Source: Deuterostichococcus epilithicus (taxonomy: Eukaryota; Chlorophyta; Trebouxiophyceae; Prasiolales; Stichococcaceae). Taken from it: 64,000 nt of DNA. Of this stretch, positions 19,545-60,174 are shown in pieces. Below the pieces are notes generated by a model. It was not told the origin of the DNA. It made no database searches and saw only the letters and a program-made list of their open reading frames with translations. Every line of letters starts with the position of its first letter. The stretch's first letter is position 1. The translations under genes and the position numbers were made by a program. The stretch is taken from assembly GCA_033439295.1 (NCBI GenBank), contig JAVTLE010000021.1, forward strand, positions 3,519,116 through 3,583,115, given 5' to 3'.

Positions 19545-22500
19545 ATGGACGTGCAGCTGACGCCGCAGCAGGAGGCGGCGGCGGCGGACCTGCTGGAGCA
19601 GCTGCGGGCGCTGAATGCCGCGGAGCGGGACGCCTATGCAGACATCGTCGCAGACTACCAGGCAATCTACGCGCAGGACCTGGAGCACCAGGTGCTTGAT
19701 TTCAGACTGAACAGGTGTGAGAGCTTGCAGCTGCACCAGAGCCGTGGCCCGCAACAGGATTGCCGTGGCTGTTCGCAGGCCGTTGCCATGCAAGGTTTGT
19801 GACCAGGTGCTGGATGTGTGAGGGTCCCGGAGTGTTGCCTGTGGTGCATGTGTGCGGGCGGTAGTCATGGGCCATCACGCGCACATGGCGAGCACAAGGA
19901 GTCCGACTGGAGGACCGTCTGCGCTTGCGCCAGCGGCTACAGGGCTCGTGGGTGGAGGCTCACACTCCCTGCGAGGTTTCCGGCACATGGGGAAGCTTTC
20001 CTTAAAACTGCACCTCTCCCCACCCCCCCGCGCACACTGTCCCCGACAGGTGCGGGCGGCACAGCTGGACAAGGAGGCGGGGGAGCTGCGGGAGGAGACC
20101 GCCAGCCTGCAGGAGGAGGTGGAGGCGCTCCGCGCCTCGGCTGCCGCCGGCGCCAAGGTGGGGCCTGAAACCTCAAGTCTTAAATCCGATGAAGCTCGCC
20201 CAGCTTCCCGAAGCGTCCTCTACAGGTGTCGGACCATCAGGCAGCGGGTGCGTGCGCGCCGCCCTATGGTGCTGTCATCACGGCAGCTGCTGCTCAAGGA
20301 GCGACGTCTCATTCAGCAGCGGCGCTGCGTGCGTGTGCGGCCACCCATGTCCGGGTCTTCAAACAGACGGTGACGCACTGGCTGCGCAGGCCGATGCAGC
20401 AGAGGCAAAGGCAGCGGAGCTGCAGGCGGAGCTGGGGCAGGCCTACAAGAGCAAGTCGCAGCTCAGCGAGGACCTGCTGAAGGTGGGTGCGCCGGAGTTG
20501 CATCTGCGGGCCATCGCCCGTTGAAGTGCACCAGCCCAGCGCGTCTGTGTGCGCAGCAGCGGGTGCGGTTGCAGCGGCGGCGCGGCGGCATCAGCAGCAA
20601 CAACCCTGGCGTCGCCAGGGGAATGTCCTGGACCCTCGCCCGCCGTGCAGTGGGGTTTCTCAAGATCACTGCGCCTGGCGGCCCATTCCCGGTGCTTTAA
20701 CCCGACAGGCCAATGCCCAGCTGGCGGTGGTGCGGGAGAGCCACGAACGCACCGGGCGGGAGGTGGAGGCGTGCCAGGGGCGCATCGAGACGCTGCGGGC
20801 GCGCGTCTCGGAGCTGGAGCGGGATTTGAACCAGGCGCACCAGGCCAAAGCGCTCGTCGACTCCGAGATGGAGGTGCAGCTCGACCATTGATCATTGTCC
20901 CACCTCGACAAAGGAGCTCATGCATCGCCCTTCCAACCGTGCGTTTTGTGCGCATCAGGCATTGCGCATGCTGGAGCGGCAGTTTGACAATGCGCGGCAG
21001 GTATACGCGCTGTCGACTCCGAGGTGGATGTGGGCACTGGAACATTTGGACAATGATTCGTCGCGGTGGAGGCTGTTGATGGGAGGGCTTTGGACAGGAG
21101 GCACGCCGTGTTTTCATGGTGCCATCAGCGCAGGCACTTAACCCGGGGAGGTGGCTCAGGGCAGTCGGGTGCAGATGCTCATGAAAATGGCGGTGGCAGA
21201 TGCCGCGAGTCGCCGGCGCAGATGGGGGATCAGGCTGGGCTCTAACCTTGCACTGAGGGCCCTGTCGGAGCCACGACAGCTGGCTCCAGCGGCCATCTGT
21301 GATGATGGCGGCGACCTCGGCTGGGCACCGGTGCTCAGTGCGGCTTCGGGTCATGCTTGATGCGTGCTCGCACCCGCTGCAGGGCCGCCTGGCAGCCAAG
21401 GAGGCGGCGGAGGCGGAGGCTGCGTCGCTGAGAGCCGAGGCGGCTGAGCTGGCGCAGCGCCTTGTACAGCTGAAGGCCACCGAGGCGGAGCGCATGGACG
21501 AGGTCAACAAGATGTGCGAGCAAATGGTGTGACCAGCCCTCCCTGAGCCGGCCGCCGCGGCCTCGAGCTCCTGCACTCACCGCCTGCAAAGTCCGCGCCT
21601 GCTTCGTCGCCCACCCTGAGCTTCCTTGGCCACTGTCAGCGGCGGCCGACAAAACTGTCAGATTCATCACCCTGTTGGATGTACTACGCCTGCGCTATCC
21701 TCTGGCGTGTGCGGCGAGTTTTGCGCAATATTGTGCCCACATCGGCAGTAGACAGGCTTGCTTCCCGCATAGAATGTGAACAACCTTGTACTTTCCCTTG
21801 CCGCAAGATCAGCAATGCGAAGCAGTGGGAGCGCACCGCGGCGGCACAAGCAGCTGCCGCCGGCAGCCGCCTGGCGCTCGCCGCCGGCGCTGGTGCCCGC
21901 GGCTTCATGAACCTGGTGCAGTCGGGGCGGCGGCCTTCCCGTGGCAGCGCCGATGGCGGGCGCCCCAGCGGCGACGGTGGCGCGGCGGAGCCCACCGTGA
22001 GTGCTTTCTGTAGAGCCAACCCCCCAAGTGTGCTACTGGTCTATGCGCGCAGGATGCCTCTTCTGCGCGCTCTTGTGCTCAGCGCGCAGTGGCAAGCTGC
22101 CATGACTTCGTCTAGCAGGCAGGCACAGGCTCCAACACCTGCTTGCAAGCTTGTGTTCAATGCACCTACAGCGAAAGCCCAACCTCAACAAGCCATGTCC
22201 ATGTCGAGTCAAACTCTTCCACATTCACGAGCATCCTACCGTGCAGGAGGCCCCCATCGTGTCAGCGCTACAGGCGGTGCTGCCGACGCGGCTGGCCAAG
22301 TCGGTGCCGGCTCATGCCGGCGGCGCCTACGGCCTTGCGTGGGAGCGGTCCGGCGGGCGCCTCGCTACCGCGGGCGCCGACAAAACCGTCAAGCTGTGGG
22401 ACTCTGGCGGGCACCATCTCATCACGCTGCAGGTGGCGCTCAGCATGCGACCGTGGTGGGGTCTTCTGCGGTGACTGTGGTTGACGGCGAAACAGCTTCT

Positions 22501-24878
22501 CACATGAGACGAGAACACATTTACGGCATGCATTTGCGGCCTGCTTGGGGCTCGAGAGTTTGTGGTCAATTCACTGCAGGGCATGTTGGCAGGGGTCCTG
22601 GATGTGGCCTGGACGTGTGACGGGTCCATGTGAGCCTTCGAAGCGTCCTTCCGACTGCCACATGCTCAGCATTCCCTGTACTGCTCCGAGTCCCTGGCCT
22701 CGTCTGCCTGCAGCGCCGAAGGTGATGGAGCTGCCTGCACGCATCAGACATCCAGGGCATGCTCGCACACGTGTCATGTCATGTGGTAGGGTGCTGGGCG
22801 CGGGCGATGACAAGTCCATCCGGGTGTGGGACCCGCAGTCAGGGCGCGTTCGCCACACCATGACCGGCCACAGCCACCCAGTGAGTGAATCCTCGGCCGT
22901 ATGTGTCAACACTGCCTCCGCAGGCTCGCACGTCTGATTGCAGTCCCTCGCAGCTCGGCCGGATAGAAATGGGGATGCTCCGTGAGGGATGCGAAAAGCG
23001 CCGGCAGCACATCTGCTTTTGCTCAGCCGTGCCGCCGCGCGAATACCGCCCCACCTACCGCCTATCCTGTTGCCGCGCACCCAGGTCACGGCGGTGGAGG
23101 CCAGCCCCATGGAGGCCAGCAAGGCCTTCAGCTCCGGCAAAGACCGCTGCCTCAAGGTGCCGCCCCTCCCCTGTCGTTGCAGTGCGACTGCGGTGGCTGT
23201 TGCAGGAGCCAGGACAGCGGGCTGCGCTGGGCGTGCACCTCTGCGGCAAGGCACGCCTCGCAGTCTGCTTGCACGATCACCCGCGCTGCGACCCTGATGG
23301 TGGTGCCGGGTCAGAGGGTCAGAGGGTCGGAAGCCAGATCTTGTCTGGCTCGCATGAGTCACGGGGTGGACCCTGCGGCGCGGCTCGTGAGTGGCGTTCG
23401 GGGATGCTCATTCCCTTTCCTATTGAGGATTTCGGCTCCCCGCGCAGGTGTGGGACCTCAACCGCGGATACAATGTGGGCTCCTTCCTGACAGCCTCCAC
23501 CTGCAACGCGCTGGTCATCACCCTGGACGGCGGCACCATCGTGTCGGGGCACTTTGACGGCGGGCTGCGGCTGTGGGACGCCCGCAGCGGGCGGCGCGCA
23601 CACGAGGTGGCGGGGCTGCACGATCCGAAAGCGGGCGGCGTGTGCGCCATCGCCGCCGGCGGCCTTGGCGGTGGGTCGTGCTTTGCCTTGTGCCGCTCGG
23701 TGATTTCTCCGGATGGCTTTGAGGGAGTCCGTCAGCACCCTTCAATGTGCGCCGTGCCGCTGCCTAGTTTCTGTCTTCGACGGTCCTGCAGCCGCTCACC
23801 GGAGCGGCTGTGGCTATGATTGCACATGCACCAATGCCGGTCGGGTGGCACGTGCGGTTGCCAACCGCACCTGAGCATGTTCAGCGCTGACGATCTGGCT
23901 GGAGACCGCACCTCGCTCACTGGCGTGACACACCTTGTACACAGCAACCATACGGACTTCGCCTCTGCTCCCCGACGCCTGATCTGCGGACCCCGCGTCC
24001 TCATGCAGAATGCGTGCTGACTGCGGGCAAGGACAACACACTGCGTCTCGTGGACCTGCGCACGCTGCGGCCGCGGCTGGCGCTGCGTGCGCCAGGCTAT
24101 GCCGTTAGCGGCGTGTGGACCGGCGCCGCGCTGGGCCCCGACGAAAAGCACGCCGCCGCCGGTGCGCCCCGTCTCTGGCGGCAGACCGGGACGTGGAAGC
24201 AGAACCTGTTGCGAAAGCAGAACCAAGCAGCCTGCTTGGGGAGGGGAAGGCAGTGCAGCGGCTGCAGGCAGCGCAGCGCAGCGGCACCCGCTGGACCGGA
24301 CAGCAGACCCCTCCTGTCACGTCTTGAGCGTTTGCTCGGGGGGAGCACTGATGCGCCGCTGCAGCCACAACCGGCAGCAGCTTGCTTGGGTCCCCCGGTC
24401 TGAGCGCAACGGTTGACGCGCAGGCTCCTTCGACGGCGCCATCTTTGTTTGGGAGCTGTCCAAGGGCACGGTCGCGGGCACGCTGAAGGGCGGCGGCACC
24501 ACGCCGGTGCTCGGTGCGGCCTGGAGCCCTCAGGTAGCCGCTGGCACTTGCTCCTAGGTTGCTCGGGCTGCTCTATGCACGCGATCTTACGAGTTTGCGG
24601 CGAGCTGGTTTGTGCAGCCTCTAAATGGTAGTCGTTGATCGACTGCTGCTACTGCAGATGTTTGCCTTGGCCCAACTCGTGTACAGCGCTGATTGTCGGG
24701 AGCAGCGGCCGAGTTTGCCATCCAGGTGCTGGACCTTCTGCGCATGGCGACACCCACTGCTGTCACAATGCAGGGCATCCCCCTGGCAACATGCGACGGT
24801 GCAGGGGCCATCAGCTTCTGGGCCGGCCCTGCAGACGCCGCGAACAGCAGCACGGGCTTGGCGCTGCCATCCTCCTGA
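19545..24878 (+). CDS. ATG16: Autophagy protein 16 (coiled coil plus WD40)
   Basis: Partner of ATG12-ATG5 that directs ATG8 lipidation to the phagophore. Fifteen exons: 19545-19691, 20050-20157, 20390-20482, 20709-20873, 20959-21000, 21383-21526, 21808-21996, 22247-22432, 22580-22629, 22790-22880, 23085-23156, 23448-23670, 24009-24161, 24424-24533 and 24774-24878; all phases match, giving 625 residues, close to human ATG16L1 (607). The N-terminal helix LNAAERDAYADIVADYQAIY resembles the ATG5-binding helix. Long Ala/Glu/Gln-rich coiled coil follows to about residue 300, then an Arg/Gly linker, then WD40 blades, e.g. ATAGADKTVKLWD, GAGDDKSIRVWD, SSGKDRCLKVWDL, VSGHFDGGLRLWD, TAGKDNTLRLVDL and GSFDGAIFVWEL. 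The start ATG has a good context (GCGGCATGG). There is no in-frame competitor. Confidence 0.93.
21008..21037 (+). repeat. Decayed copy of ATG16 exon 4 3' end located after exon 5
   Basis: Exon 4 ends CGCTCGTCGACTCCGAGATG plus GAG before its donor. A close relative lies in intron 5, just beyond the 42-base exon 5. A weaker match to exon 5 itself (TTTGGACAATG) follows, so the block exon4-end/intron/exon5 may have duplicated as one unit. Confidence 0.55.
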
Positions 24879-26794: not shown

Positions 26795-29700
26795 ATGGAC
26801 AGCGGCGATGGCGACGAGGACCTGGCTCGCGCTCTGGCACTCAGCATGCAGGAGGTACAACCATTCGATGCAAATCAAACCTCTGTGCCTCAACGCGACA
26901 CTTGTGCATCAGCAAATACTACACCTGTTCAAGCAGTCACTTCCGCTTGTCGACGAGGCTGGCAGTGCATGGTGCCTTGGACATGCGCATGCTCATGCTC
27001 ATGCTGCGAATATGTGCACCATTCCTCGTGGGCTGCACTGCAGACCGGACACACCTTTCGTCATCTATCCAGCATTGAGGGCTGATATAAGCTGCTGTGG
27101 CTCTGTTGCGCACGCATCAGCTTGTCTGATGTTCTTGCTCCGGACAGGTGACCACGCAGGACCTGAGCCGCGAGCCGCAGACGGAGGGCGATGCGAGCGC
27201 AGCTGCTGCCGGAAGCCGGAAGCGCGCGCACGACAACGGCGACACAGGCAAGGCAATTGCCGGCTGTGGACGCAGTGTGGGGTTCCAAAATGGTGGGCAA
27301 GACCCGTCCCAAGGGCGAGGGTCAGCATGTGGCCCAGCATGGCGGTCGCTGCTGTACGAAGCTCGAATGTTGTAGCCTGTATGTGCATTTAGGTACCGAA
27401 GCCAGCAAGACGCCGCGCTCGTCTGAGGACCGGGACGTCGCCGGCGGCGCATCGGCCTCCAGCGGCGCGACGGCGGACAGCGGGCAGCCCGGCTGGCGGC
27501 AGCAGCAGCAGCAGCAGGCGCAGGTGCAGACGCATGCGTCTAGCAGTGCTGGCGACGGCGGCGGTGGGGCTGAGCCTTCGGACGACGAGCTGCTGGAGCA
27601 GGCCCGGGCGCTGTCCCTGCAGATGCAGGTGGGGGTACCCTGCAGCTTCCATACTGGCGCACTGTTTTGCCAGAGCCCGAATAACGAGCCGTGCTTTGCG
27701 CTGCCTCATGATCGTCCACACTCATTCTATCGGGCAGCAGCGCCTGCCACATCTGAGGTGCAGCATCCCAGCTGCTGAAGCCGCTGTGTGCCTGAGGCAT
27801 CACCGAGCGCTGTCTGTGACAAGCATGGTTTCTGAGAGGGCAAACGACTGTGTCTGTTCAGGATACACAGCCGAACCCGTCAGCGCCAGCTACGGCACTG
27901 GCAGCGGCGCTGGCAACAATGCAGCAGGGCGAGAGTGGGGGGCCCGCAGGCCCGGCGGCACCGCCTGCGCCAGAGACGTCAGCGCCGCCCGCATCGGCAG
28001 CGCTAGCGGCAGCAGCTTCGGTGATGCCGCCCCCGGCAGACGGGCAGCCGGGTGCAGGCCATGTAGCGGACGACCTCATGGCCGCCCAGCATGTGAGTCT
28101 CTCACGTCATTTGCATCGAACTGTGTGTGCACAAGCGCCAGAGAGGTTGCATGTGCCTCATCCCCGTCATTGGTTGCGTGGCGTCATAGGCGCATGGTGC
28201 CAGGTTTATCAGGATCTCTAAGGATCGCATCTGTGACCGAGCCACTGCGAGAGTCTGCGAGGACTCTTTGAGTTCTCATGGCGTTGCTCAGTGGCCGCAA
28301 TGCGATGGATTCCAGAAATCGTTATGACTTTGCACAGCCGCTGAGAGTTGCGGCTGCAGCGCTGTTCCCATAGACTCGGCATGGCGCGGTGCAGGCGGCG
28401 ATGGCGGGCGGCGGCGCGGCCATGTTCCAGGCGTTGGGAGTGGACGCCGCCACTGCGCAGGCCATGGCTGAGGCCATGGGCTTTGGCGAACCGCCCACGA
28501 CCGGTGGCGGCGATGGCGCACCCGCAGGCGCATCTGCCGGTATGTCTCGTGTCATCACATGCTGCAGTCGGGCGTCCACGATACGCGCGGGCCCCTTTCC
28601 AGATCACGGTCGTCATGGGCTCAGGTCCATTGTTCTGGGGACCAGAGTCGGCAGCCACACAAGGGTGCTGTCACTGCGAGCCCCAAGACAGTTATGCCTT
28701 GCAGCGCGCACACGCGTGGCAAGTCCCATTCGCTGTTCTGCAGACGAGGGCTCCTACTCTGACGAGGACGACGCGATGAGCTACACAGATGGCGAGGACG
28801 ACCTCGGGCCCGGCTTCGGACAGCGTGAGGCTGGGGTGGGGGCTGCGGCTGCAAGGCTCCCGCCGCCGCCCGCATGGCTGGCGCAGATGCGCCACTGGCT
28901 ACCCGCCGAGCCACGTGAGCGTGAGACCACGCTTCTTTTTCCAGTGTTGCAGAAAGGCTCGCAGGGTCCGCACACCAGCATCACTTACGTCCTCTGAAGA
29001 CCTGCAGTGCTTCCGTCAGTAAGGGCTGATGGTTGTAGTACCCTCGACGCATGTGCAGTCTGAAAATCGTGCCAGGAACTGCAATGCTACCTCACTGAAG
29101 CATGCGGAGGGCCTATGGTGCAGGGCCGCTGGCGCCGGTGGCGGTACCGGCAGGCGCCGTCGATGCTGTGCAGGCGGCGCTGACGGCCGCCATGGGGCTG
29201 ACGGTGCGGCTCGCGGGGCCGGGCATGGGGACTCCCGTGGCGGCGGCCAGCGGCAGCGCCAAGGACCCGCTGGCTGTCACGCTGCCGATTGGCGCCGGCG
29301 CTGACGGCGGCGCGTCCATCGGTGCGAGCCAAACCAGGCAGCACGCCAGCCACATGTCTTGCATGATGCTCATATTATAAGGCAGGCCGTGACCAGACAC
29401 ACGGACAGTGCTGCTCGACGAGTGAGTGCAGCTGGCAATCAAGTGGTCCTGTACCAGCGGCTGGATCCGGCTCCGCGTCCAGTCAAAGCGGGAGGAATGC
29501 TTCGGTGTGCAGCGCCGGCGGGCATGGACGCGGCAGTGAAGGCGCGTGTGGCGGGCTTTCGGCTGCGCAAGGAGCGCGCCACGGAGCTGGCGGCCCTGGC
29601 GGCGGCGCAGGCGCGCGCGGCGGCGGGTGCCGCGGCGGCCGGCGGCGGCGCCCATGCTGCCGCCGCCACAGCCGCGCTCGAGGTGCAGCGAGGGCGTGCT

Positions 29701-32700
29701 GCTCTGCTGCTCGGCCCAACCGTGAACTACTGCTGCTTGCAGAGGCACACGGCACCTGTCGACTGGGCTGCTGCGCTGTTTCCGGCTCGCAGCCGCGACC
29801 GTCGGCGCCGGCACGAAGCATCAGTACGAAGCACGTTGTGCCGCGCAGTCCTGCATGCCTTTCAAGCAGTGTCGCCGCATCACACAGGCACTGCAGGGCG
29901 CGGCGGCGCGCCGTGCGGTGGCGAGCCTGGCGGCAGAGGACCCAGATGACCTGTACTTCAAGGATGGCGAGGCGGCCTCGGAGCTGCTGGCCTCGCTGGT
30001 GCGACACACCGGCTCCGCACGCGTGCACATCGAACCACAGTTGTACATGGGCTCTGCATGTCCTGCGGCTCGCAGGCAGTCGCCAGTAAGTCAGGAGCTG
30101 CATATGCCAGGAATGGCTACCCGTGTGGCTTCTTGTGGAGCCTGACCACATCCTGCAGTAGAACGGCTCGAAACCACCTCCCGTGCTTTCATGCATGTGC
30201 AGGCGGCAGAGCGCATCAGGCAGCCCTTCCTGGCACTGATGCTGCTGCATTCCGGGCGCGAGCACGAGGCCATGTGGGAACAGGTTTGCCACCGCAACCT
30301 TGCTTGGATCTTGCGCATTTGTCTCCCTGCACTGCTGCAGCCTGCTCCCTCCACCTGCTGGATTCACGTGATCAGCTAGCAATGCAATTGCGCCTGCACG
30401 GGGTATCACATCACAAAGCGCAGGGCTCAGAGATTGCCCGCAGTGCTGCCCGAACCTGCTTGTGCCGTCCAATGCCATGACCATGACTATGACTTTGGGC
30501 CCCGCAGCTGCTGCGGTCGGCGTTTCGGCAGCTGGCGGACCTGGACTTTGTGCGCGCCGAGGGGCTGGAGGGGGCGCTGTTTACGCTGGACCTGCTCACG
30601 CGGGCGCCCGCCCTGCAGCGCGGCCTGGTGAGCGTGTTGCCCACGTCTGTGGCAGTTTATCGAATGGAGGTCAGAACATGCCGAGTGCTTGGTGGTGACT
30701 TCGCTCTCTTATCAACGCCCGAAGCCGGCGCTGTGGCTGAGCACAGGCGTCGATGCTGCTACGGGAGGCGGAGGCAGCCGCGGCGCAGACGGGCAGCACT
30801 GTGGAGCAGGTCTCCTTCCTGGCGCCGTTGCTGCAAGGTGTGCTGCTGTGTGGTCGTTCTGGCGCTGCATGATCAATGAAAGAGGGAGTGTAGCGTCTTA
30901 GGAAGGGTGGCGTGCAACCCCATGAGACTGCTTGTGATCTGCACCTCATTCTCTAGACTGCACAGCCTGGCACGCGCTTTGTGCAGTGTTTGCCAGACCT
31001 GACAAGGAACCTGCAAGTCACGCGGGCAGTCTCGGGAACATTGCTGGCCCGACTCTAGCTGCCTCGCTATGTCCTGGGCCATGTTCCAGTGTTGCCACGC
31101 CTTCACGCCTCACGCCTGCAATTTGAGTCCTGCAATTTGAGGGCGGAAGACTGCACCGCCTATCCAGCCACACAGCCTCCCGCTGTGCAGCATGTCACAG
31201 CAACGAACCGCGCGCATTCTACATGATCTGCCCTCAGCAGCGCCCCAGTCGACCGTCTCACACCTGGCGCAGTCCCCCTTGGACCGGCAGTGTGGCCCAT
31301 TGGCGCTGTCCCAGAAGCTCCTGAACCCTGCTTGCCTGCTCCTTGCGCGCAGTGGGCAGCGTGCCGGAGGCGCGCTCCGTGCTGCAGGGCCGCCTGGCAT
31401 CGCCGGCGCGGGCGTACCTGGAGGCGCTGCGCGGCTACCCGGCCAACAGGGGAGAGGCGGACGGTGCCGCGTCCTTCATTCGCGGCACGCTCAAGCGGGT
31501 GCAGGAGGCCGCCCGAGAGATCGCGCTGCGCATCATCAAGGCCAAGGTGCGGACACGCACGCTGGCGCCGGGGCAGCACCCCACAGTGCACAGCTGTGCC
31601 AGGGCTGTGTTGAGGCTGCAGGCAGTGCGCCGGCCAGGCTGAGGCGCAATTCTGCAGCTGTTGCTCAATATCGCTATGCGACCCAGCCAGCATTGTGGCT
31701 TGGCAGACATCCTGGCTGTGAAACAGCAAAGTCAATGCCCAAAAGACGTCGCGCCATGCGTCAACAGGCAACATCGCTGCTGCAGCCCGCACGGATGTGA
31801 AAGTCACTGTATAACTTTGCTTGTCTCCAAGCCAGTCTCGTGACACCGTCAGTCGAGTTTCGAGCTTCGTTTCACCTTGCGGTGTTGTACTTCGCCTCGC
31901 TTGCCGGCAGACCACACTTTCATTATCTAGAGCGGCGCGCAGCATGCGATGTCCACCTTGCCTGTGCTTCCTTGGCCTGCGGGAAGCCGCAGCAGCCGCC
32001 TCGCAGTGCTCAACTGACAAGCCCCAGAGGCTGCTGCGGTTGTGCAGCACCACATCTGTCCTGTGGCGCAGGGCACAGAGGTGCCCAAGGCAGGGCAGGA
32101 GGCGGTGCTGGCCTGGCTGGCGGCGGTCGCCGGCGCCAACCTGCCTCGCGTCTCTGGCGGCGAGGTGTGTGTGATGCCCTCAGCACCTGATCGTCCATAC
32201 TCGCAGCAGCCCTGCTGTGCAACGTGTTCTCTCGCTGCAAGGCTCTGCACTGAAGGCTTTGCTGTGCGGCTGCCCTCACTTCTCAGCTCGTACTTCGCTG
32301 GCGACTGCCTTGCCAGCTGCAGCCTGCTGCGTCCCAAGACCTCCCAAGCTCACGCTTTGTCGTGCGCGCAGGTGCGGGGCGTCGTTGGGCGGACACCCAT
32401 CGCGGACGGCTCCAGCGACCGCTTCGCGCTGGGCGCCGCGGCACTGGGGCTGCAGCTGTGCCGCCCCTTCCTGGCGGGCGGGGCCAAGCACACCCGCCAT
32501 CTGACGCCCGATTACTTCGTCGCTGCGGCGCACAGGTGTGTACGCCTCGTTTCGCTGCTGATTCCGGCTCAGTGATGCTCCTCTGGTTCTGCAGTCATGC
32601 TGCTGTGTGCACGCCCACATGGTTACGGGCGGATGCCGCGGACGGCTGTGTGTTTGAGGCCGCTTTGTGCAGTGCCCCCGTTTGCACAGGAATACATGTG

Positions 32701-35700
32701 TCGCTTTGCACAGCAGCTCAGTCGTGTCAAACCCTGTGGCGGCGCAGGCTGTACACGCCGTCAGAGGCGCAGACGCTGGCGGCGGCGCCCGGCGCGGTGC
32801 CAGGCGCTGCTGGCGCCGCCCCGTCGGTGCAGCCGGCGGCGGCAGCCGTGCGACAGGCCACAGCAGCGGCTCCAGCGGCCGGCGCCAATGACGATGCGGA
32901 GGAGGAGCCTGAACCGCCTGCGGCCAGCTTCTATGGGCGACCGTACCTGAGTCTAGATTGCGGTGCCGACGCACCGCAGCCGCCGCACTTCATCGCGGAG
33001 TGCTTCTTCGTCACCGGGCAGCTCATGCACACCGGCACCATCCCGGCAGGCACGTCGGCGGCTGCGGACCCCCATGGCTGAGCTCCCTATGCATGCTCCG
33101 GCTTTTGCTTCGTTGCTCAATGCAGCTGGCTGAATGGATCTGGCGCGATGCACAAGCGCCGAGCTTCAGAGAGAACCTGTGGCCTGAAACCCTTCACCTC
33201 TCGCCTGAGAGCGCTCCCAGCTCTTGGAAACCCGCGACGCCTGCTGTCGCAGTCAATCGGTATGCGCAGCTGCTGGAGGCCGTGCGGCGGGGCGAGAAGG
33301 GCAAGTCGGACGAGGAGCTGGGCGGCGCGCACGGCCTGGGCCGCGCCGCCTGGCTGCTGGTGGACGCCTCCACCGCGCAGCTGCTGGACCCGGGCTTCGC
33401 CTCTGACGCCGTGCAGTTTGCGGTGCTGCAGGCGCGGTTTGCTCTGGAATGTGTAGTGCAGGGTTTCGCTGCCCTGCTCCTTAAAGTTCAGTCGTTTGTG
33501 CGCCCCAACGGGCAGATCCTGAGGTTGGCAGCGCGGTGGGTTCTGCTGGTTTGGGCGCACGATGGATGAGACTGTAAGGTCAGGGGACGCAGCGCCCAGC
33601 ACATCTGGTTGCCGGCAGGCGCTTCGCCTTGCGGCCAATGAGCACAGGACGCTGGCTTATGCGTTCGACACATCTGCACTTCCTGCAGACATGGCGAAGT
33701 CGCTGATGACGGGTCCTACGCTCGCAGGTGCGGTGGCTGGCGAATCTCATCCGGAGGCCGGACGCTCAGGCGGCGCTGTCGCTGGTGCCCGACACCATCC
33801 CCAAGGACGCCGCCACATGGCTCGCGTTCTGCGTCCGCCAGGGCCGCGCAGGTGTGCCGGCACCTCAACGCTGGCGTCACTGCGGTTGCTGTGCAAGCTT
33901 CAATGCAGCAGCCTGCCAGTCTGACGCTTGTCTGCACATGACGACTGCTGCTGTGCAAGACGCTGTGCAGCGGCAGTCGGCATGTGCGACAACCTTGTTT
34001 ACTGCCCTGACCACCACCTTGATCTGGCCAAATCGGTCCACCTCATCGACTGTTTGCGCCCTGCATCGCTTGCGTACCACCCTCCGACCTACATGCAATG
34101 GTGCCGCAGACCTGGTGTCAGGCTCCGATGTGGGCGGCCTGGTGGACGGCCTGACTGCCATCCTGGAGTGCCGCCACATCGGCAGCCCGCTGGTGGCCTC
34201 CAAGATCGTGGAGCTGCTGCTGGTCATGCTGCAGTCGGACCACCGGTCGGCCGGCGCCTTCGCCAGCCCGGCCGCGTCGCGTGCGCTGCGTCTCGCGGTG
34301 CTGGGTGAGCCGCCAGTCACGCCTGAGAGACTGCGGAGCCTGTTGGGGAAGGCCTGTTCTGTCACCTGGCGGCGGAATGCGCAGGGTGGCGGTGCTGTAG
34401 GCGAGTGCATTGGTGTGATAACGCGCAGGGTTTGCTGACAAGACTGCCAGGTTCCATTGTGGCGTGAATGTTCCTGAGGCGTTGACGTCACTCCTTGTCT
34501 CAAGCTGCTCTCAAAACACGGCGTTTTTTACTGTTTGCAGGCACTGGCGCGGCGCAGCAGCACCTGCTGCCGGCGTTGATGCGGGTGTATGCGGTGGCGG
34601 ACGCGGTGGTGGGCTTGGACGTGGACCGGGACGCCTTTGACAAGTTCAGGTGCGCTGCATTCGCAGCGGCGGCGGTGATTTCAAGTCCAGCAAGCCACGG
34701 GTTGCTGCCCGACTGAGTGAGCCTGACTGCCACCGGCAGTTGGGGTTGCACAGCATGTGGGTCTCCTGCCCTCTGATTGCGCATTTCGCAAGTGGCTGTT
34801 GTTGCGCTGCTGCTTGCTGGCTTGCACAAAGCCTGAAGACGGCAATGTGGGGACTTGGTTGCATGTCAGCATGCCAAGCAGGCTTAGCAGGCAGAGCAGC
34901 GCCGACTGACTGTTTGTCCTCCTGGACGCTGCTGAGCCGACGCGGCTGAGCGCCCAAGTTCCCGCGCCCCCCCGCAGCATGCGCCATTACATCGACCTAC
35001 TGCTGTTGGACATCTGGCGGGACCCAGCGCAGAAGCGCGCCCTCACGCGCCTTGCAACCGATGCGGCGGCCGATGGCCAGGCTTCAGCCTCTGCGGAAGG
35101 CGCGGCGGCCGCTGCTTCCGACGACCTACCGGCGGCGGGCGGCGGCGCGCTGCTGGTGGACTATGCCCGCGCGATGCTCAACAGCCTCATGTACATGCTG
35201 GGGGTGAGTGTATCTTGTGCCTTCATCTGAGGCATTTTGGGGGTCGGTTCCTGGGGATCAATACCTGCCACTACAATCTGATGGGCCTGCCCTGCCGCGA
35301 GGTCAGATGTGGTACACCTCGACAGGGTCCATGCAAGGCCGATGTCCGGGTTGGCTGGCGCCTTCCGGCGTGGCGTTTGCACTGGGTCCTGTTGTGGCCG
35401 CTGGCCACGCCGCAGGGTTGCATGGCAAGCTGCATGGCATGAACCGCATCCTTTGAATGGCAGAGCGAGAGAGCAAAAGCTGCATGGCATGAACCGCATC
35501 CTTTGAATGGCAGAGCGAGAGAGCAACCAGAGCCACAAATGGGGATGATTGCTGACGCCTTGCGCACTGCTCTGAGCCAGGACTCCCTGGAGCGCTTCTT
35601 CGACGTGCACACCATTGAGGCCGCGCAGGCCGATGAGGAGGCCTGGTCACAGCTGCCGCCAGGGTAAGCTCTGCTGACGACGAGTGCCCTTTTCGCTACT

Positions 35701-38700
35701 GTTGGCAGCATTGTGTTAGCAACCTCAGAATCGCGCATGCTGTAGTGCTGTGTTCAGGCACGATAGTTCCTTCAGATGATGTTGTTCAACCCAACTTGGG
35801 CCATGGATACCAGCATTCCTCAGCTTGCGATCTCTTCGAGCTTTCTCTGCTCTATCTTTGATTCTGGTGAGTAGGCAAGATCTGTCTTCGACAGGGAGCG
35901 GGAGACCAAGGTGTCATTTGCGGACCACCAGCGCGGCCTGGGCGGCAGCTACATGCGGACAGCGGTCACAACACTGCAGCTGCTGCTGGAGCTCGTGTCC
36001 GACGAGCAGGTGCAGCCTCGACACTGCAATGTGATGGCAGTGCCAATCGATGAATGCAGGCTCTTCTCACTGAGTCGCACATGCTGGGTGCGCCAAAGGA
36101 GGCATGGCCGACTCGCCACCCTGCGGGAGGCCACCACCTCCTTCAGGGGGACACCACCTCCTTCAGGGGACCACCTGTCATCAACTCGAATGCAACAGAA
36201 CATCCGGCCTGACGGCAGTTCCCGGCGCTGCAGGTGGCGGCCACATTCCTGGCGCCTCCGCTGGTGGGCCTGGCGGCCTTTTCGTCGCTGCACTTCCTGG
36301 AGCTGCTGGTCGGGCCCAAGGCGCCGGGCCTCGCCATCAAGGAGCCCGAGAAGATCGGTGCGGGAGCTCTCCGCTGCTCAGCTGGCACGACTGCCCTGTA
36401 TTTTGACGGCATGCCTGCTGGGCTGCTCGTGTGCCAGACGGATGCGATTCAGTGTGTCGCAGGGAGCTCCAGCCATTCACCGACATCTGCTGGTTCGCAA
36501 GGGACTGCCCAGTCGCCAAAAGCCACACAAGAGGGTGAAGCCACTCTGCCTGGACTGGCTCAATGAGTGACGCTGAACCTGCTCGCCTGCAGGCCTCGAC
36601 CCGACCAAGCTGTCGGTGGCGGTGTCGGAGTTTATGCTGCACCTGGCGCGTCGGCCCGCCTTCGTGCGCGCCATTGCCGAGGAGCAGGACTACAATGAGG
36701 CCGTGCTGCAGGCGAGTCCCACACGATACACGATTTATTTGCTCGCTCACAGAGTCCCTGCAAGTCCCACCCTACCTGACGAGCGCTGCGGGGAGTGGCC
36801 TCAGCGCTGGCACTGCTGCGGCTCTGCATGCATGGTTGCAACCGCCGACAGCGGCCCAGCAGTCCAGCTTTCAAGTGTGTACCTGACGCTGCTGCCGCGC
36901 CACTACAGGGCTTCCGTGACAAGGTGGTGTCGGGGGAGCTAGGCGCGCACGGCCATGCCGTCGGCCTGGAGCAGCTCATGCAGCAGGTGAGCAACTTGCG
37001 CCATCCTGCCCGTGCTGTATGCACAAGCGGGGCACGTCGACTGCTGCCCGCCTCGGTCGGCCGCACCACGCCATTGAAGGTGGCTCACAAGTCGTTGTCG
37101 GTGTCTGCAGCACCTATGCAGCCGCGCCGGTCGGTCTACATCCAGCATGACCCCACACTCTACAGTCGAGCGCATCTCGACTTGAACAATTTTGCATGCA
37201 GCATCGATCGAGGCATGCCACCCTTTCACATACGACCGCCCTGTTGGCGCCATGCACAGGTGGCGCGCATCCGAGGCAAGGAGGCAGCCGGCACAGGCGG
37301 CGCGGCATCGAGTGGCGGCCCGCCAGGCGGCCTGGACTCTGCAGAGCTCGCTTTCGAACAGCCAGAGCCTGAAAACCTGGAGGAGGTGGGCCGCTGGTGC
37401 CTGTTGGGGGGCTTGGATACCGTTGAGCGGCATAGCATCTGCGCCAGAACCACACCCGCTTCTGCTGGCGGGTTGCCGAGAGCCGGCCGGCATTGAGGGT
37501 CGGTTCCGGCCAGACCAGTGTCAGCACAACACCCTTCATCGGCCCTGCTATTTAGGGTGGCCTGCGGGGACTGGACAGCGTCGGCATGCCGCAAACCTGT
37601 TGCACCTGAATGTTCATTGCCGCCAGGCGTACCGTGCGGCGCTGGAGCCGGTGGCGCGCGGCGATTTCGACAGCACTGCTCCGCGCGCCTACAGCAGCCT
37701 CTACGCCCAGCTGGCGGCCACCACGCCGGGCGACACTGCCGGCAAGATGCGGCGCCTGCAGAAGGTGCCGTCCGAAGCCTGCCACCTGCATGTTGATGGC
37801 TGCAGGAGTGTGCCTGCAGGGCTGTCAGACACCCCCTGCAAAGCCTCCGCATGCACCGCAACGTGTCTCGCTGTGTCTGCTGGCATATGTTTCGTGCGCC
37901 TAAGGTGTGGATCGGGTTTGCCCTCACATTCGGCCTCTGCTGCACACAGGAGCTGCGAGCACTGGGCGGGCGCACGCAACTGCCGCTGCACGCCGCGGCG
38001 GCGGTGTTCTTGCGCTGGGACGGCGACCGCATTGACAAGATGCGCGCCGTCATCTCAGGCGCGCCCTGCAACCCCGCCCATGCCTGCTGGCTGTCCTCTG
38101 CAACAAGGAATGTGCGGCTCCACCAGCGCCATGCACAGTGCTCTGAAGCGGCAGAGGGCCTCTCTGAAGTCCTTCTGGACGTGCACAGCTCCCAACTCTG
38201 AACAATTTTTGCAGCACCCCATTGCAGCACTGCTGTGCAGCGCGCTGTGACACAAAGATGCGACGCACACGCAGTGCGGTTGCCGCAAGACTGTGCACTC
38301 TCGCTGCAGGGCCGGAGGGCACTCCCTATGAGGCGGGCCTGTTTGTGTTCGACCTGTTCTTCCCGGGGCAGTACCCCAACCTGCCGCCGACCATGAAGCT
38401 GGAGACAACGGGGCAGGGCAAAGCACGCTTCAACCCCAACCTGTGCGCCCCCACATGCCTCGTGACTGTGCTCTCTGGCTGACTCGTCGCCAAGGCTGAA
38501 AGTTAACCAGCTGGTCGGTAATTCCTGGAGGGCCACTGGTGCCTGTGGCATTGCCAGGGTTCGGCGGTGTCTCGTGGGCTGCCACATCAGCAGCTTGTCA
38601 GGTCTCGCCGTGCCGTGCCATCTGGCGCGGTGCTGCTCACACAGCAGTTGCTAGGCGGGCCGCCCTGCCAGAACGTGCAGCTCGCCTGTGCTGACTCCGT

Positions 38701-39660
38701 GCCGCGCAATGCGACGCGCAGGTACGCGGACGGCAAGGTGTGCCTGTCGCTGCTGGGCACCTTCTCTTCGGCGGACGCCTCCGAGCGCTGGAACCCCGCG
38801 TCCTCCTCCCTGTACCAGGTGGGGGCGCCGTCTGTGTCCGCAAGCAGGTGTCAGGCGTCCCTTCCTGGCCTGAGACCCTCCCTGTCTCGAGACCCTAAGC
38901 CATCGCCGAGCCTTCCCGTCACAGGCTTCTTTTCCAATCGTGAATGAGCGGGCCTTCCCTAAAAGCTGGTGGTCAAAGCGCCAAGGCCCGCCGCTCACGT
39001 CTCCGTGCAACCTCTTTTCCCAGGGTCACCACCCCCAGTAGCGCTGCAGGCTGTCGAGTGAATCCCCTGGTAACCCGCGCCGCAGGTGCTGCTCAGCATC
39101 CAGGGCATGATCTTCGTGGCGGACCCCTACTACAACGAGCCGAGCGTGGACCAGATGCGCGGCACCTCGGAGGGCGCCACCACGAGTGCCGAGTACAGCT
39201 TTGGCGTGCAGCTCAACACCATGCGCTGGGCCATGATCGACCAGCTGCGCCACCCGCCGCCCGGCTTCGAGGTGTGGCACTGGGCCGAGCCGGGTGTGCA
39301 GCAGGTCCTGCTTCGAGACAAGACCGCTCCTGGAGAGGCGTCCAGTGTGCGCCTCAAGGCGCGTCTCTGGGTTGGGCAGCCGCTGGCGTCTAGGCTTGTG
39401 CGTGCGCCTGCGAACTATCCTGTCTCTCCAAAGCAGGACCACCAGTCGTGCACAGTGCATCAAGGAAACTCGAATCACAATGATTGTGTCACCTGCAGGA
39501 GGTGGTTGCCACCCACTTCCGGCTGCTGCGCCACCGCATCATGCGCACCGCCGTCAAGTGGCTGGCAGCGGCGGAGACGCTGCACACCATTGATGCCGTG
39601 CTGGTGGCCCGCATGCGCAGCACCATTCAAGAGCTGCACGCCCTGCTGGCAGCGCTGTAG
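26795..39660 (+). CDS. Ubiquitin E4-E2 fusion: UIMs, Ufd2/UBE4 core, BIRC6-type UBC domain
   Basis: Thirty-three exons join in perfect phase to 1596 residues. Residues 7-20 (DEDLARALALSMQE) and about 117-131 (ELLEQARALSLQM) are ubiquitin-interacting motifs, followed by Ala/Pro/Gly-rich linkers. About 380-1280 align with the Ufd2/UBE4 E4 core: AECFFVTGQLMHTGTIPAVNRY, DIWRDPAQKRALTR, FLELLVGPKAPGLAIKEPEKI and AIAEEQDYNEAVLQ correspond in order to yeast, plant and human family members. The U-box that should follow is absent. Instead a Gly-rich linker (exon 37260-37385) leads to a BIRC6-like pre-UBC helix region and an E2 fold: DKMRAVISGPEGTPYEAG, FNPNLYADGKVCLSLL with the catalytic Cys at about 1456, and FVADPYYNEPSVDQMRGT. 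Last exons: 36909-36986, 37260-37385, 37627-37764, 37950-38058, 38310-38442, 38722-38818, 39086-39271 and 39499-39660. Four introns appear to be GC-AG. Single-gene status rests on splice phase and lack of an intervening stop, not on transcript data. Confidence 0.85.
35427..35526. repeat. Perfect 50-bp tandem duplication in an intron of the E4-E2 gene
   Basis: Two identical 50-base units (35427-35476 and 35477-35526) lie between exons 34978-35203 and 35581-35663. A second, shorter duplication of an ACCACCTCCTTCAGGGG unit lies at about 36130-36172 in another intron of this gene. Confidence 0.9.
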
Positions 39661-39960: not shown

Positions 39961-41718
39961 TTATGTGACAGAGTGAGCGTGCGACTTGAATATCGCCCGC
40001 CGGTAATGCCTCAATTGCCGAATCGAGTCCTGGATGTCCGATTTCGCCGTGTGCGCCTGCCGCTTGCGCGGCGCCTTTGCATACTCCTGCGGTCGGGGAG
40101 TCGCCAGGGTTCAGCATGTCAAGCGGTACATCATTGTACGCATTGCACCCAGTTGGACCAAGCCACAGGCAGCAGTCCCGAAGCCAGGTGCCCACCTTTG
40201 GAAACCACCGCCGGCACAGCTCCATCACAGTGCTCACGTCCTGCGAGACCCTCAGCCGGAGCGTCAAACTTCATCAACTCAGCAATCTGGCGCAGCGATC
40301 AAGCACGGTAGTCTTCCAGTGCCCCACTTTGCAGGACTGCAGACGCGCGGGGCAGCCAGCGGGTCAGCAGGACAGCAGTGCAGGGCATGTGGATGCAGCA
40401 CATCAGAAGACAGGCGGGTCCCACCACAACCCGGTAGGGGAGGTGTGCCGCAAGCTGCGGCATGTCCTTGCGCAGAAACGCTAGGTCCACATGCACCGAG
40501 CTGCCTGCAGTCCAGAAACGCCCAACAGTCTGCAACCTGTCAAACAAGACAGGCATCGCTGGGGCCTCGGGGCAAACGGCAATCACGTAGGCGCCTTCCA
40601 CACTGGCTAGCGGTCGGCCAGCTGGCACCAAGACCATACGAATCTGCGTGCCGCACCTGCAAGGTGATGTCGTGTGCTGCCGTTCGTGTACCGCTGCACG
40701 AAGCTGAGCACCTGCTCCTCGGCCTCCTGCAACGGGAACATTTCCATCCAGTCGCAGCAGCGCGTGACCAGGCCGAGAAGACCGGGCACCGAGCACGCCC
40801 ACGGGCAGGGTGGCGAGTACGATGTGGGGCTGCGCCTTGACTCGCGCTTGCTGTCCTTATGAAGAGGCTAGCCAGCGATATGAATGCGAAAGCTCAGAGC
40901 CAACTGCTCGCCTGCATGGAAACGGCGCTGGCGCGGCAGCGGCCCGTGAGACCGGAGGCGCCGTGGTGCTCCGTGCTCCACGCGTTCATGCCGTCCAACA
41001 CCGCGTCCCCATGGTGGATCGCCAGCTCCGGGCCCTGCGGCGTGCGCAGAGGCGGTGGCCGCTGGGCCAGGCGTGGGACGCTGCTGCCCTGCCATCCTGC
41101 TGGCGGCTTCCGAGACAGCGCCGCTGTGCTGCGCTGTCGCATGGGCGCATGCAGGGCTGATGTGCATGCAGCTGTTGGCAGGGGATTGGGGTGCGCTGCA
41201 CGCCGCAATGCCACTTAATTGACGCATCCAGTCGAGCTCACCATGATCTCCTCCCGCATGTGGCTGTCCGTCAGGATCACAGCGATCTCGATGATGGTGT
41301 CCCGCTGCAGGTCCAGGCCCGTCATCTCCAGATCGATCCATATCAACGCATTCTGCATGAGTGTCTGTGGCGGCGGCGGTGGCAGCGGCGCGCCGTCTGC
41401 AGCATTGCCGGCGCTTTCGGACTGAAATGCCGCCGCCGCCGCCGCCGCCGCCGCCGCTGCGCCTGCCGCGGCTGCGTAGCTCCGGCGCGCTGCAGGCTCG
41501 GCTGCGCCATTCTGCCTGCATCCTTGGATGAAATTGCATATTGAGCTGAATGCAGTTCCTGTGCTTCAAGTTACATTGCTCTACGCCTCGGGCACGTCAA
41601 CTGCATGCCTGTGTTCAGGATGCGTGGTGGACTTGTCGTCCTCGGCTGCTGGCTGCGGCTCTGCTCCGGCAGGCTGCTCGTCTAAAGAAAGGTGTTGCAG
41701 CGCAGCATAGTAGCTCAT
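39961..41718 (-). CDS. ORN: Oligoribonuclease (DEDDh 3'-5' exonuclease)
   Basis: Degrades 2-5 nt RNA fragments to mononucleotides; eukaryotic homologues (REXO2/SDN-like ORN) act in mitochondria and cytosol. Seven exons, 41718-41609, 41515-41242, 41034-40912, 40726-40657, 40504-40431, 40240-40196 and 40074-39961, give 269 residues in frame. The catalytic D and E are in [12 protein letters not shown], the third D in [15 protein letters not shown], and the final H..D in [20 protein letters not shown]. These complete a DEDDh site. Two introns appear to be GC-AG (donors at 41608 and 40911). The first exon is acidic and not an obvious targeting peptide; ATG in MQNALIWID (41364) could start a shorter form. 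A poly-Ala run (~10 residues) lies before the catalytic domain. Bacterial Orn is ~180 residues; the extra length is N-terminal. Confidence 0.92.
41429..41457. repeat. GCC trinucleotide repeat encoding poly-alanine
   Basis: An uninterrupted GCC/CCG run inside oligoribonuclease exon 2, read as alanines on the minus strand. Such tracts are prone to length change. Confidence 0.8.
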
Positions 41719-42641
41719 TTCTGGCTCCCGCCCTGCGCAGCTGCCGCAACGGCAGCACTTCTGTTTGTATCTGCTGATCTGGTCCCTCGGGTGGGCAGCC
41801 GCAGCAGTTTGAAGTAGCGTGTTACTTGGTTACACGACGAAGAAGCGAGTTTGGCCCGTCAGTCGAGACTTCTCAGATCCCGAAGACCGACACTGCGCCT
41901 GAAATCGAAACCAAGACGCGCGCTGCGCCAGGAGACCAGACTTCACCAGGGGTGAGCGAGCTTGCGAGTGAGAGTCCAGAGAATGTGCAACGGTGCAGAG
42001 TCGCGCCTTCCTGCGAGCTGCCACCTACACTTTCTGCCGTGCACCCTCGTTTTGGGGAACCAGCAGGGGTTCCGGTAATTCAAAGGATTTCAAACCATGC
42101 CAGGACGGATCATGCTTTCCTTTGCAATTACTGAGCAGATTGATCAGCAATGCGTCCGAAAGCGTCTTCGAAGCCATGCCGTTGCAAATTCGTGGCTTGA
42201 GCGGCTCGGCAGTGGGGCGCTGCCGCAGCAGCAATTGTGCCGCCGCCATCAAGGTGGCAGGCCTGGCTTCAATCCGAGCCATATGATGCACATACAATGG
42301 CGCCAATCTCAACAAAAGAAAATCCTCTCGATGCAAATCCAACATCAGAGCGTCCTTCTTCTCTGGCCAACTCAAAAAGCTCGTAGGTGATACCCGATCA
42401 ACTCATCAACCCGAATCTAAACAAAGCGCAGTGACACCCTGTGATGGCAAGCGCTCAGCACCTGGCAACCTCCTTGCCGTGCTGCTTCCAATTGCCGTGC
42501 TGCTTCTGATGGCGGCTCTCCCGATTGTGTACACCATGACTGACAGAAATGAATCGGCGGCACACCGCTGGCGGTGTGTGCCCGGAATTCCAGTGGCGCT
42601 GCTCAGTGCGGTAGACGAATGTCCACAAAATTTGCTAGGCG
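41719..42641. other. Intergenic region between oxidase copy A and oligoribonuclease
   Basis: Holds the oligoribonuclease promoter side and the 3' UTR of oxidase copy A. A minus-strand open frame at 42024-41830 begins with a basic, Ser/Arg-rich stretch like a targeting peptide, but no in-phase splice to the oligoribonuclease gene was found. No other gene is supported. Confidence 0.4.
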
Positions 42642-45600
42642 TCAGTCGACCTGCTTGGTGTGCGCCTGGAACTTCAAATCCTCGTAGATGTCGCCAGTCT
42701 GCGCATCACACGACCAGGGCTGAGATCAAGAGGAGCAATCGGAGGCGAGCTGCGATGCACAGACCTAGAGTCGAGGCGCGGTGTCAGTGGATGCATAAAA
42801 AAAAAGCGGCACCTGGCAGGCGCGCATCGTCTTGACATGCTCGCCCTCGTCGTCCCGGATGTTGATGAAGACGTCGTGCAGGTTCCTCGCAAGAACCAGC
42901 AGCCCCAAGCTCAGACAGCGGCGACGCGCGCGCAGCTGGTTTTGGCAGCACAATGCGGCGGTGCCTAGGTCAGGAGTGCGATGCAGATGTGGCAGCCGGC
43001 GGCAGCCAGGAGAAGTGTCTCGTCTCTCACCGGCAGTGCGGGCGGCGGGGCTCCACCCGCTTGGACGTCTGAAACTCGTCGAACCTGTGTTGCAGGTCAG
43101 GGTTTGAGGGCGAGCACCAGCTCCTGAAGCGATGAGCAGTGCGGCGTGCACGACGCCACGGGCGGCGGTGGATGCAGATGATATCGAGAGCTCACATGTA
43201 CAGGTCGTCTCCCTTGTAGTACTGGAGGGCGACCAGCGGCGGCGGCATGCTCTTCAGCACCGCTTCGTTGGCGTCTGCGAACTCGCCTGCAGGGAGGGAG
43301 GTGCATCCAAGTGACTGCGTCTCAGCAGCCAGATGCTTTGATGCACGTGTCCAGCCAGGCTGGACTCGATCCTGGCCACAGCGGCAAAACAGCGGTCGCA
43401 CCATACGTGTCCACCGCGTGCGCCTGCAATGACACACGCACGCGTCAGCACAGGGTAGCACCACTGAACAACGTGGTCGCACAGCACGATGGCCAACGTG
43501 CTGCGTGATGCATGTCGCATTCGCACATCAGCCGCGAAACAGGATGCACCCCCCTCCTCCAGCAGACTGCACCTCGATCAGCTCGCTGAAGTTGTAGGCC
43601 TGCAGGCGAAGCAGACGGCCGGTTGGTATTTGCCGGTTTCTGGGCAGAGCGCAAAGGCACGATGCGACACGATGGGTGTCTATCGGCACCTTTTCCGGAT
43701 CAAGCCAGAAGAATATCAGAAGGATCCAGTAGTACAGAACGCTCGCGTGCTGCGCAAGAAACCTGCGGCTCATGTAAGACGAGGTGTGAGCACCCGGGCG
43801 TCGCCAGCTGGCAGCAGCTGCACTGCAGATTGCCACATTACATGAATTGTGGCAGTTCAAGAAACAAGCAAGCGTCTCACCTGTCCACCCACAGCTCGTC
43901 ACCCCCCAGGCTCTCCATGATCTGCATACGAAGCAGACCCGATCACCATATCATCTTGCAGGTTGCACGATGCACGCGCAGGCTGGCATCACACAGTGAC
44001 GATCCTGCTGCACAGGCACCCCGGTTTACCTGCAGGTGGTGCAGCTCGTTCCACTCCTCTGTACGTGGACAGGAAACCAATGCAGTTGTGTCAGCGCCAC
44101 ACGATTGTCTCTCCAACCAAGGGTCTCGAGCATGCACCCAGACAAGCGGCAAGTCGGCCGTGCGAGCCACCCTTGGCGGCAAACATCGCACCTGCAAAGT
44201 GCCTGCAGGAAGAAGAGAAAGGGCGCTGAGCTTTTCCGAGGTACAGGTAAGAAGGTAGGATGAAGGGCCCTTGATCACAATTCTGCTGCAGGGCCCATCA
44301 GCAGGAAACTCACACTTTGCGCAGATCGGCTCCGGCTCGCCACCACCCAAATGACTCGTACAGGTGCAGCATCGAGATGTAGCTCTGCACGAAGGAGGCA
44401 GCAGTGCCTGGGCATGTCGTGCCAGAGGTGCTCACGACGCCGCCACCGCCGCATAGAGCAGGAGCACTGTGTACGGTTGGACAGAGGAGGAGCATGCAGG
44501 CAAGTGTATGGAGAAGGAATCTGTCGCACATAGTATGGCATCCTAGCGACGGACTCGAGGAACCTGTGCGCAGAGGACAGCGACATTGCTCGCGTGTGAG
44601 TTTCTGCTGTAACCAGCCTGCAGGATTGTGAGGTGCAGAGCAATCTGGAGCAACTGGATCAGTCAGCAGGAGCCGCACCAAAAGCGCTGGATGGGGCGAT
44701 TTGGGTACACGACATCAATCAGCCAGCACAGCACTGCGGGCAAACATACAGGTGGCTCAGACGTGATGTGGGGGCAGGCGCGCTAGCGAACTCGCATCTC
44801 AGCAGCCGGACCGAGGCAGGTCTTCAACTGCGCAGCACCGCAGCGGCACCTGTGTAGGGTATCCGCACGAACCAGGCGGTCTCGACGCCCTGGCCTTCTG
44901 CCTCCCGCTGCTTCTCCCGCAGCGCCACGCCCCGCACCGACAGTGTCAGCGCCGCCAACTTCTTCCGCATCTGCACGGGTCAGGATCGCGGCCGTCAGCT
45001 GCTTGTTCCATCGTGCAGCGGACACCAGGAACAGCAAGTGCAGCCGCTGTGTGCTGGCTCGGGGTGCGCTGGCTGCAGCACGGCTTGCGGCGCTGGCCGC
45101 TGCGATGGCTGCGCGGCAACGATGGCTGAGGAGCGACCATGCGTGCAGCAAGCATGCTGTCTGCTGCTTCACAGCCTGGTCCCGTCCGAGAGGTTGGCCA
45201 GTCTCGCCTCCTGGGTGCGGACGTCCTGCGACTCCCGACCCTCCAGCTCGAGGTCTGTCTGCGACGCCGTCAGCTGGGACAGGACGCCGCGGTCCTCCAG
45301 CCACTGGTCGATCTGGCCGAAGCTGCGCACCACGCCGGCCGCCAACTTGCGCCACGCCTGCATGGAAGCGGTCAAGTGTGCAGTCGAGCACGGGCTGGAT
45401 GTTCGAGTGCGAGTCAAGCGCGATGCATCACAGAGGCTCAGCCCGGTCGACCCGCAGCTGGGGGCCGGGTGCAGCGCGAGCGGGGTCACCTTGACGAGCG
45501 GCTGGGAAGACGGCGCATTGTCCTCAAACTCCCTCCACTCGTCGTACCTGAAGGACCTATGGCACGAGGCAGCACATACGTGAAGTCCAATCGAGGATTG

Positions 45601-51632: not shown

Positions 51633-52185
51633 CTGTTCTGCTGCGAGCTAGGGCTCGCTGCACGCCGGAAACTCGCCGCAGTGGTGCTGGGCCGCTGGGC
51701 GGTGCAGCTGCCGGTCAGCATCATGTGAGCTGCTGCAATGCGACGTTGCAAATGCAATTTTGTTTGGAGAAGAATCTCACGGACGAGACAAGATATCACG
51801 ACCGTCGCTTAGTCAGTGTCGGAGGCTTCTTCGGCAGACATCTCTGTGAAGGCTTTTTCGCAACGCAGCTGTGCGATCGCGGTGCTTGCATGTGTCCTAG
51901 ACAACCGCATCGCAGGCCGCGCTGCGGGACGGCCGCTGTTGGCTGCACGCGGCGCTGCGGACGTGCGATCATCACAGATCATCCGAGCGCGGGAAGATCC
52001 CGCGGTGATGTCAGCAACATCGACTCCTTGCATTCAGTCATGCCGGCGACGCCCCACACACGATAAAGTGTTCAATCTGAGGTCCATTGCAGGCTCTCCT
52101 GGCTCCTGACTGGTGCATCCGGTAACAGCAAGGCAGGCGGGCGCTGTGAAAAGTCGCTGGAAACTTGCGTCGCTGTCTCAAGTCG
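51633..52185. promoter_or_regulatory. Divergent region between PTOX copy B and the next gene
   Basis: Head-to-head spacing. A minus-strand open frame (52033-51809) has a transit-peptide-like composition and an acidic tail (AFTEMSAEEASDTD), but no in-phase donor links it to PTOX copy B. It is left unassigned. Confidence 0.35.

Positions 52186-57373: not shown

Positions 57374-60174
<2,801 letters not shown>

Follow-up and report, generated by a model that had tools for sequence, protein, structure and literature searches.

Can a scaffold of the UBE4/Ufd2 family carry its own E2 at the place where a U-box would be expected? This question is raised by a locus of the trebouxiophyte alga Deuterostichococcus epilithicus, which lies in a window of 64,000 nucleotides (C18:3519116-3583115, the whole stretch of DNA that was analysed) within a genome of 46.8 Mb and 21 contigs, all of which was searched. 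Two enzymes frame the question. UFD-2 interacts with E2s through its U-box, as stated in an excerpt of PMC5797217, and BIRC6 is presented, in an excerpt of PMC10827748, as both an E2 and an E3, with a flexible C-terminal UBC on a large armadillo-repeat scaffold.

Architecture of the predicted protein

The predicted gene begins with the ATG at 26795 and ends at 39660 on the forward strand, and its 33 exons keep a single frame and code for 1,596 residues, with the terminal TAG (39658-39660) as the only stop. The splice sites were read by hand and checked by script, and the outcome agrees with the 33-exon, in-frame model of the initial annotation. Twenty-eight introns are of the GT-AG type and four are GC-AG, with lengths of 119 to 525 bases; the choice of the N-terminal exons and of the four GC donors was a matter of judgement. 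A parser that used generic signals, and was trained on its own output only, returned 31 exons, including 20 that coincide with the hand model, 10 with another boundary and one extra exon of 4 nt. Exons 4, 10 and 27 of the hand model were omitted by this parser, which spliced exon 26 to exon 28 with the frame intact; as exon 27 has 126 bases, its omission does not shift the frame. When the splice matrices of the hand model were used, all 33 exons were retained (exon 17 with a different end), although this second parser is not independent because its matrices come from the hand model. The four tiny extra exons that it added (18, 10, 8 and 3 nt) were rejected.

The spliced protein matches the Pfam family Ufd2P_core (PF10408) in one stretch, from position 3 to position 627 of a profile of 628, with 205 bits and an E-value of 2.6e-60, so that the full Ufd2/UBE4 core reported initially is upheld. 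Among the five structure sequences listed for this core, four are yeast UFD2 (about 6e-12, with the best stretch at about residues 1091-1250), while the fifth is unrelated (E 0.19). The U-box had been described as missing, and indeed none (PF04564) was found in the spliced protein by Pfam at E<=1 or at this locus among the 30 matches listed by a genome-wide U-box scan. At the same Pfam threshold there was no BIR domain, nor anything other than Ufd2P_core, UQ_con and UIM. Any claim of a missing U-box must be read with the caution that a snail ufd-2 model provides: it holds Ufd2P_core only, and its authors, in an excerpt of PMC6548493, thought that missing U-boxes were possibly due to annotation. 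At the N terminus there are two UIM-like motifs (Table 1); when residues 1-380 were shuffled 2,000 times, 8 of the shuffled sequences gave at least two matches to the UIM pattern, counting overlapping ones.

The C-terminal part contains a UQ_con domain (PF00179) at residues 1392-1503 (Pfam, 78.6 bits, 4.5e-22), in which the catalytic cysteine predicted earlier near residue 1456 falls at Cys1456, within FNPNLYADGKVC. Among solved structures, human BIRC6 is the best match (3ceg, 2.5e-63, residues 1349-1569), followed by UBE2O (5.6e-37) and UBE2Z (2.5e-27), and thus the earlier assignment to the BIRC6 type also holds. For the BIRC6-like helix region that had been placed ahead of the UBC the indication is weak: similarity begins at residue 1349, 14 residues ahead of Met 1363, and does not extend back to where exon 28 begins. 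When this E2, human BIRC6 and a second E2 of the alga, on contig C11, were aligned together, the segment from RFNPNLY to GKVCLS varied at two positions only, and the overall identity of the fusion E2 is 44% to the C11 E2 and 48% to human BIRC6. An intron lies just before the VL(L/V)SIQ motif in these two algal E2 drafts and in a third, on contig C15. A search of the E2 part against NCBIfam, a prokaryotic library, gave nothing.

Table 1. Positions of the features of the predicted fusion gene within the window.
Feature	Positions	Strand	Evidence
Whole gene	26795..39660	+	33 exons, 1,596 aa
UIM-like motif 1, residues 7-20	26813..26854	+	Pfam UIM 20.3 bits, below the curated cut-off of 21; pattern match
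UIM-like motif 2, about residues 117-129	27581..27619	+	Pattern match alone; absent from Pfam output
Exons 8-12 (part), residues about 381-567, upstream of the Pfam core, partly alanine-rich	29513..30824	+	No Pfam match
Ufd2P_core, residues 568-1281, exons 12-27	30825..37262	+	Pfam 2.6e-60; structures of yeast UFD2 at about 6e-12
Exon 26, end of the core	36909..36986	+	Donor rank 1 of 671 GT sites of the gene, leave-one-out
Exon 27, linker residues 1281-1322, at the UBE4 U-box position	37260..37385	+	Codon score higher than in all 1,619 open intron windows; omitted by generic-signal parser
Exon 28, residues 1323-1368, reaching the first UBC helix	37627..37764	+	Codon score of the part ahead of the ATG higher than in all 1,619 open intron windows; similar to BIRC6 from residue 1349 on
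Exons 29-33, BIRC6-type E2 (UBC) and C-terminal part, residues 1369-1596	37950..39660	+	UQ_con, BIRC6 match
Predicted catalytic Cys1456 codon (FNPNLYADGKVC)	38741..38743	+	Aligned with BIRC6

Searches of the window with Rfam (gathering threshold) and for tRNAs returned nothing. A crude parser merged the draft models on the reverse strand at about 1098-17714, in which a Cpn60 chaperonin, an Na/Ca exchanger with EF hands and a GHMP (homoserine kinase-like) protein can be recognised. Around 22313-24878 (forward strand) and upstream of it, on the 5' side of the fusion gene, an ATG16-like coiled coil is followed by WD40 repeats, in what is likely to be an autophagy protein. At about 41272-58845, again on the reverse strand, we observed an RNase_T family exonuclease, an M24 metallopeptidase and what appear to be two related copies of the alternative oxidase type (Pfam AOX, in two stretches of one merged draft).

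A canonical UBE4 elsewhere and the proposed function

In the initial annotation, the locus was taken for the E4 gene of the organism, with another domain in place of the U-box, and a search of the genome for a separate U-box UBE4 was suggested. Such a gene was found at C12:3172922-3178762, with a draft protein that scores 482 bits for Ufd2P_core and 92 bits for the U-box, and consequently the idea of a replacement is not supported. The seven matches of an exon-by-exon Ufd2P_core scan of the genome were all located at C12:3172922-3177785, and the U-box of this gene (C12:3178619-3178762) is one of the 30 matches listed by the U-box scan. The exon-by-exon scan did not pick up the core in the window and, therefore, another diverged core might lie elsewhere. 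When the genome was searched with the core from the window, the 17 matches were all at the fusion locus. Pairwise alignment of the fusion core with the C12 draft gave 266 identical residues in 895 aligned positions (30%), and of their 27 and 26 introns, respectively, none coincides in both column and phase (one same-phase pair lies one column apart), in a comparison where the C12 draft includes a few doubtful tiny exons. Given this identity and the lack of a common intron, the fusion core is not a recent copy.

With the E2 part as query, nine matches were obtained in the genome, five of them in the window and four at C11:1657046-1657490 and C15:318737-319284. The C11 E2, of which a part was searched, is of the BIRC6 type: the value for 3ceg is 2.1e-32, whereas UBE2Z reaches 1.6e-16 and UBE2O 5.7e-15. 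For the C15 E2, the values for BIRC6 (4.3e-35) and UBE2O (1.7e-34) are nearly tied, and its identification as UBE2O was dropped. As to their surroundings, the C15 draft (C15:303553-320762) shows by eye two WW-like motifs ahead of its UBC, which may be real or may come from two genes merged by the parser, and in the C11 draft (C11:1630103-1658861) a segment upstream of the E2 looks, also by eye, like a UBC fold that is inactive. As an ordinary UBE4 and a separate BIRC6-type E2 are present, the fusion would be an extra, strongly diverged E4-like paralogue joined to an E2; since both partners also occur as ordinary genes, the fusion gene is an addition.

What would such a protein do? The reading that we prefer, with a probability of about one half, is a single-chain 'E2-E4' enzyme, made of a diverged paralogue of the UBE4/Ufd2 scaffold with a linker and a BIRC6-type UBC at the U-box position. 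By analogy, the position of the UBC suggests that this is the BIRC6 plan on a Ufd2 scaffold. Everything beyond the domain assignment is what we infer for its mode of action. The UIM-like motifs and the Ufd2 solenoid would hold a client, already ubiquitylated or otherwise delivered, E1 would load ubiquitin on Cys1456, and the tethered UBC would pass it directly to the client or chain, as described for the E2/E3 BIRC6. If the UBC passes ubiquitin itself, there would be no separate E2 to recruit, and it is plausible that the fused E2 has made recruitment through a U-box unnecessary. As the ordinary UBE4 remains, the fusion protein probably serves separate clients instead of taking a general E4 role. 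A more ambitious version, which we put forward tentatively and consider rather less probable than its opposite, is that of a self-sufficient E4 in which E2 recruitment by the U-box was swapped for a tethered BIRC6-type E2, which arose beside a conventional UBE4 and which would represent a new E2-E4 hybrid class.

The chief rival accepts the fusion gene as real and takes the Ufd2 part as what is now a docking scaffold only, in an E2-E3 hybrid similar to BIRC6 or UBE2O that would have its own clients and no part in chain extension. The divergence of the core makes this a serious rival: with a match of 205 bits where the canonical copy reaches 482, the fusion protein may have lost E4 function. 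The retention of a canonical UBE4 and the fact that BIRC6 already pairs a solenoid with a C-terminal UBC (excerpt of PMC10827748) point the same way. Nevertheless, the core still matches the whole length of its profile in one stretch, and the UIM-like motifs would suit ubiquitylated clients, so that on balance we regard an E2-E3 hybrid of this kind as somewhat unlikely.

One gene or two

Both the single-chain 'E2-E4' enzyme and this rival presuppose one gene. The weak point recognised in the initial annotation was that the junctions between exons 26 and 27, 27 and 28, and 28 and 29 are all in phase 0, as they are in the rebuilt model, and a run of this type cannot decide the matter. The alternative would be two adjacent genes, namely a Ufd2 core gene lacking a U-box and a stand-alone BIRC6-type E2 that would start from an ATG like those at 37215, 37252 or 37747. 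A separate E2 gene is made formally possible by ATGs at 37116 and 37215, in the frame of exon 27, and at 37252 and 37747, in that of exon 28, and the phase-0 junctions give no help against the split. However, the frame, the exon 26 donor, the codon scores and the parses all favour one gene, which we consider very probable from these features of the sequence.

Between 36780 and 37493, through intron 26 and the whole of exon 27, no stop interrupts the frame of exon 26. Therefore, an unspliced core gene would cross exon 27 and end at 37494, and the first of two genes would need another end. Exon 26 finishes, moreover, at the best donor of the gene, which ranks first among 671 GT sites (when left out of training) and fits an internal exon. 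Exon 28 counts on the other side, as neither of its splice sites stands out (rank 213 of 770 for the acceptor and 103 of 671 for the donor).

With exons 26-28 excluded from the codon table, the score per codon is 0.26 for exon 27 and 0.53 for the stretch of exon 28 that precedes the ATG at 37747; the values become 0.26 and 0.54, respectively, when introns 25-29 are also excluded from the background. The background maximum is -0.003 among 1,619 overlapping open windows of 42 codons in 30 introns, whose scores are lowered by construction because these introns made the background. Intron 26, when read in frame, scores -0.28 per codon. For a separate E2 gene, the sequence leading from 37215 into exon 27 and that from 37252, read unspliced into exon 28, score -0.53 and -0.29 per codon and are not coding-like, whereas for a start at 37747 both the coding-like sequence of exon 28 and the similarity to BIRC6 begin ahead of the start codon.

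Parsing the region as one gene gave a score of 788.6, against 777.1 for the best of the two-gene parses (88 cuts between 36990 and 38295), and this best cut splits the UBC; with a cut up to 37755, the best value was 775.8. The two-gene parse scored lower for each of the 88 cuts even though starts and stops were free of cost. The comparison is biased in both directions: free starts and stops help the two-gene parses, while the one-gene parse profits from a parser that was trained on the fusion model, and the codon background likewise came from the introns of that model. The polyadenylation motif TGTAA is absent between exons 26 and 28, and it is also absent from the stop codon to 41000. Altogether, two adjacent genes appear improbable.

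A decaying pseudogene, or a chimaera produced by misassembly, which the divergence of the core might suggest, is highly improbable in view of the 33 open exons with intact splice sites, the conserved catalytic cysteine and its surroundings, the positive in-frame codon score of the 32 exons scored (exon 33 was left out), the position of the locus well within a contig of more than 3.5 Mb and the search with the core, which matched this locus in 17 of 17 cases.

Relatives and comparison with known systems

Among the papers listed by searches of the open PMC full text, none deals with a Ufd2-core/UBC fusion in its title or at the start of its abstract, and excerpts of PMC11354881, PMC4378952, PMC2408969, PMC4327156, PMC5095918 and PMC6548493 do not mention one. 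The last of these is the sole paper in that collection holding both Pfam names. Related algae may carry the combination of core and E2, and databases may already list it. Single-query scans of viral and genome contig collections, which are non-eukaryotic, found no relatives of the fusion, and neither did a scan of the viral contigs with a three-sequence E2 alignment; such an absence says little because these collections are not eukaryotic. The E2 alignment did match one locus among the genome contigs, in a Rickettsiales MAG, a candidate that was discarded: it lies on a short, AT-rich-looking contig with an ordinary-looking UBC, and none of its five listed ORFs looked like a Ufd2 core by eye.

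If the preferred reading of a single-chain 'E2-E4' enzyme is correct, the scaffold role of Ufd2 (the binding of clients and cofactors) would be separable from that of the U-box, the BIRC6-type UBC would be shown to be able to move between scaffolds, and a single-chain enzyme would be at hand for studies of chain extension.

Three known systems may be compared with the fusion protein. With UBE4/Ufd2, represented by yeast UFD2 and by the C12 copy, it has in common a full-length Ufd2P_core, but it differs from them by the lack of a U-box and the presence of a C-terminal E2, as well as by a long N-terminal extension with UIM-like motifs. In relation to the C12 UBE4 in particular, its core is far more diverged and has no intron at a common column and phase with the draft. 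With BIRC6 (BRUCE/Apollon) it shares the UBC subtype, its C-terminal location on a scaffold and the context of the catalytic cysteine. By contrast, no BIR was detected in the fusion protein, the scaffold is a Ufd2 core and the chain has 1,596 residues, against 4,859-4,898 for the long BIRC6 chains listed. Finally, UBE2O, an E3-independent E2, is likewise a large protein whose UBC lies towards its C-terminal end and represents the next best E2 family (5.6e-37), although the fusion E2 is clearly less similar to it than to BIRC6.
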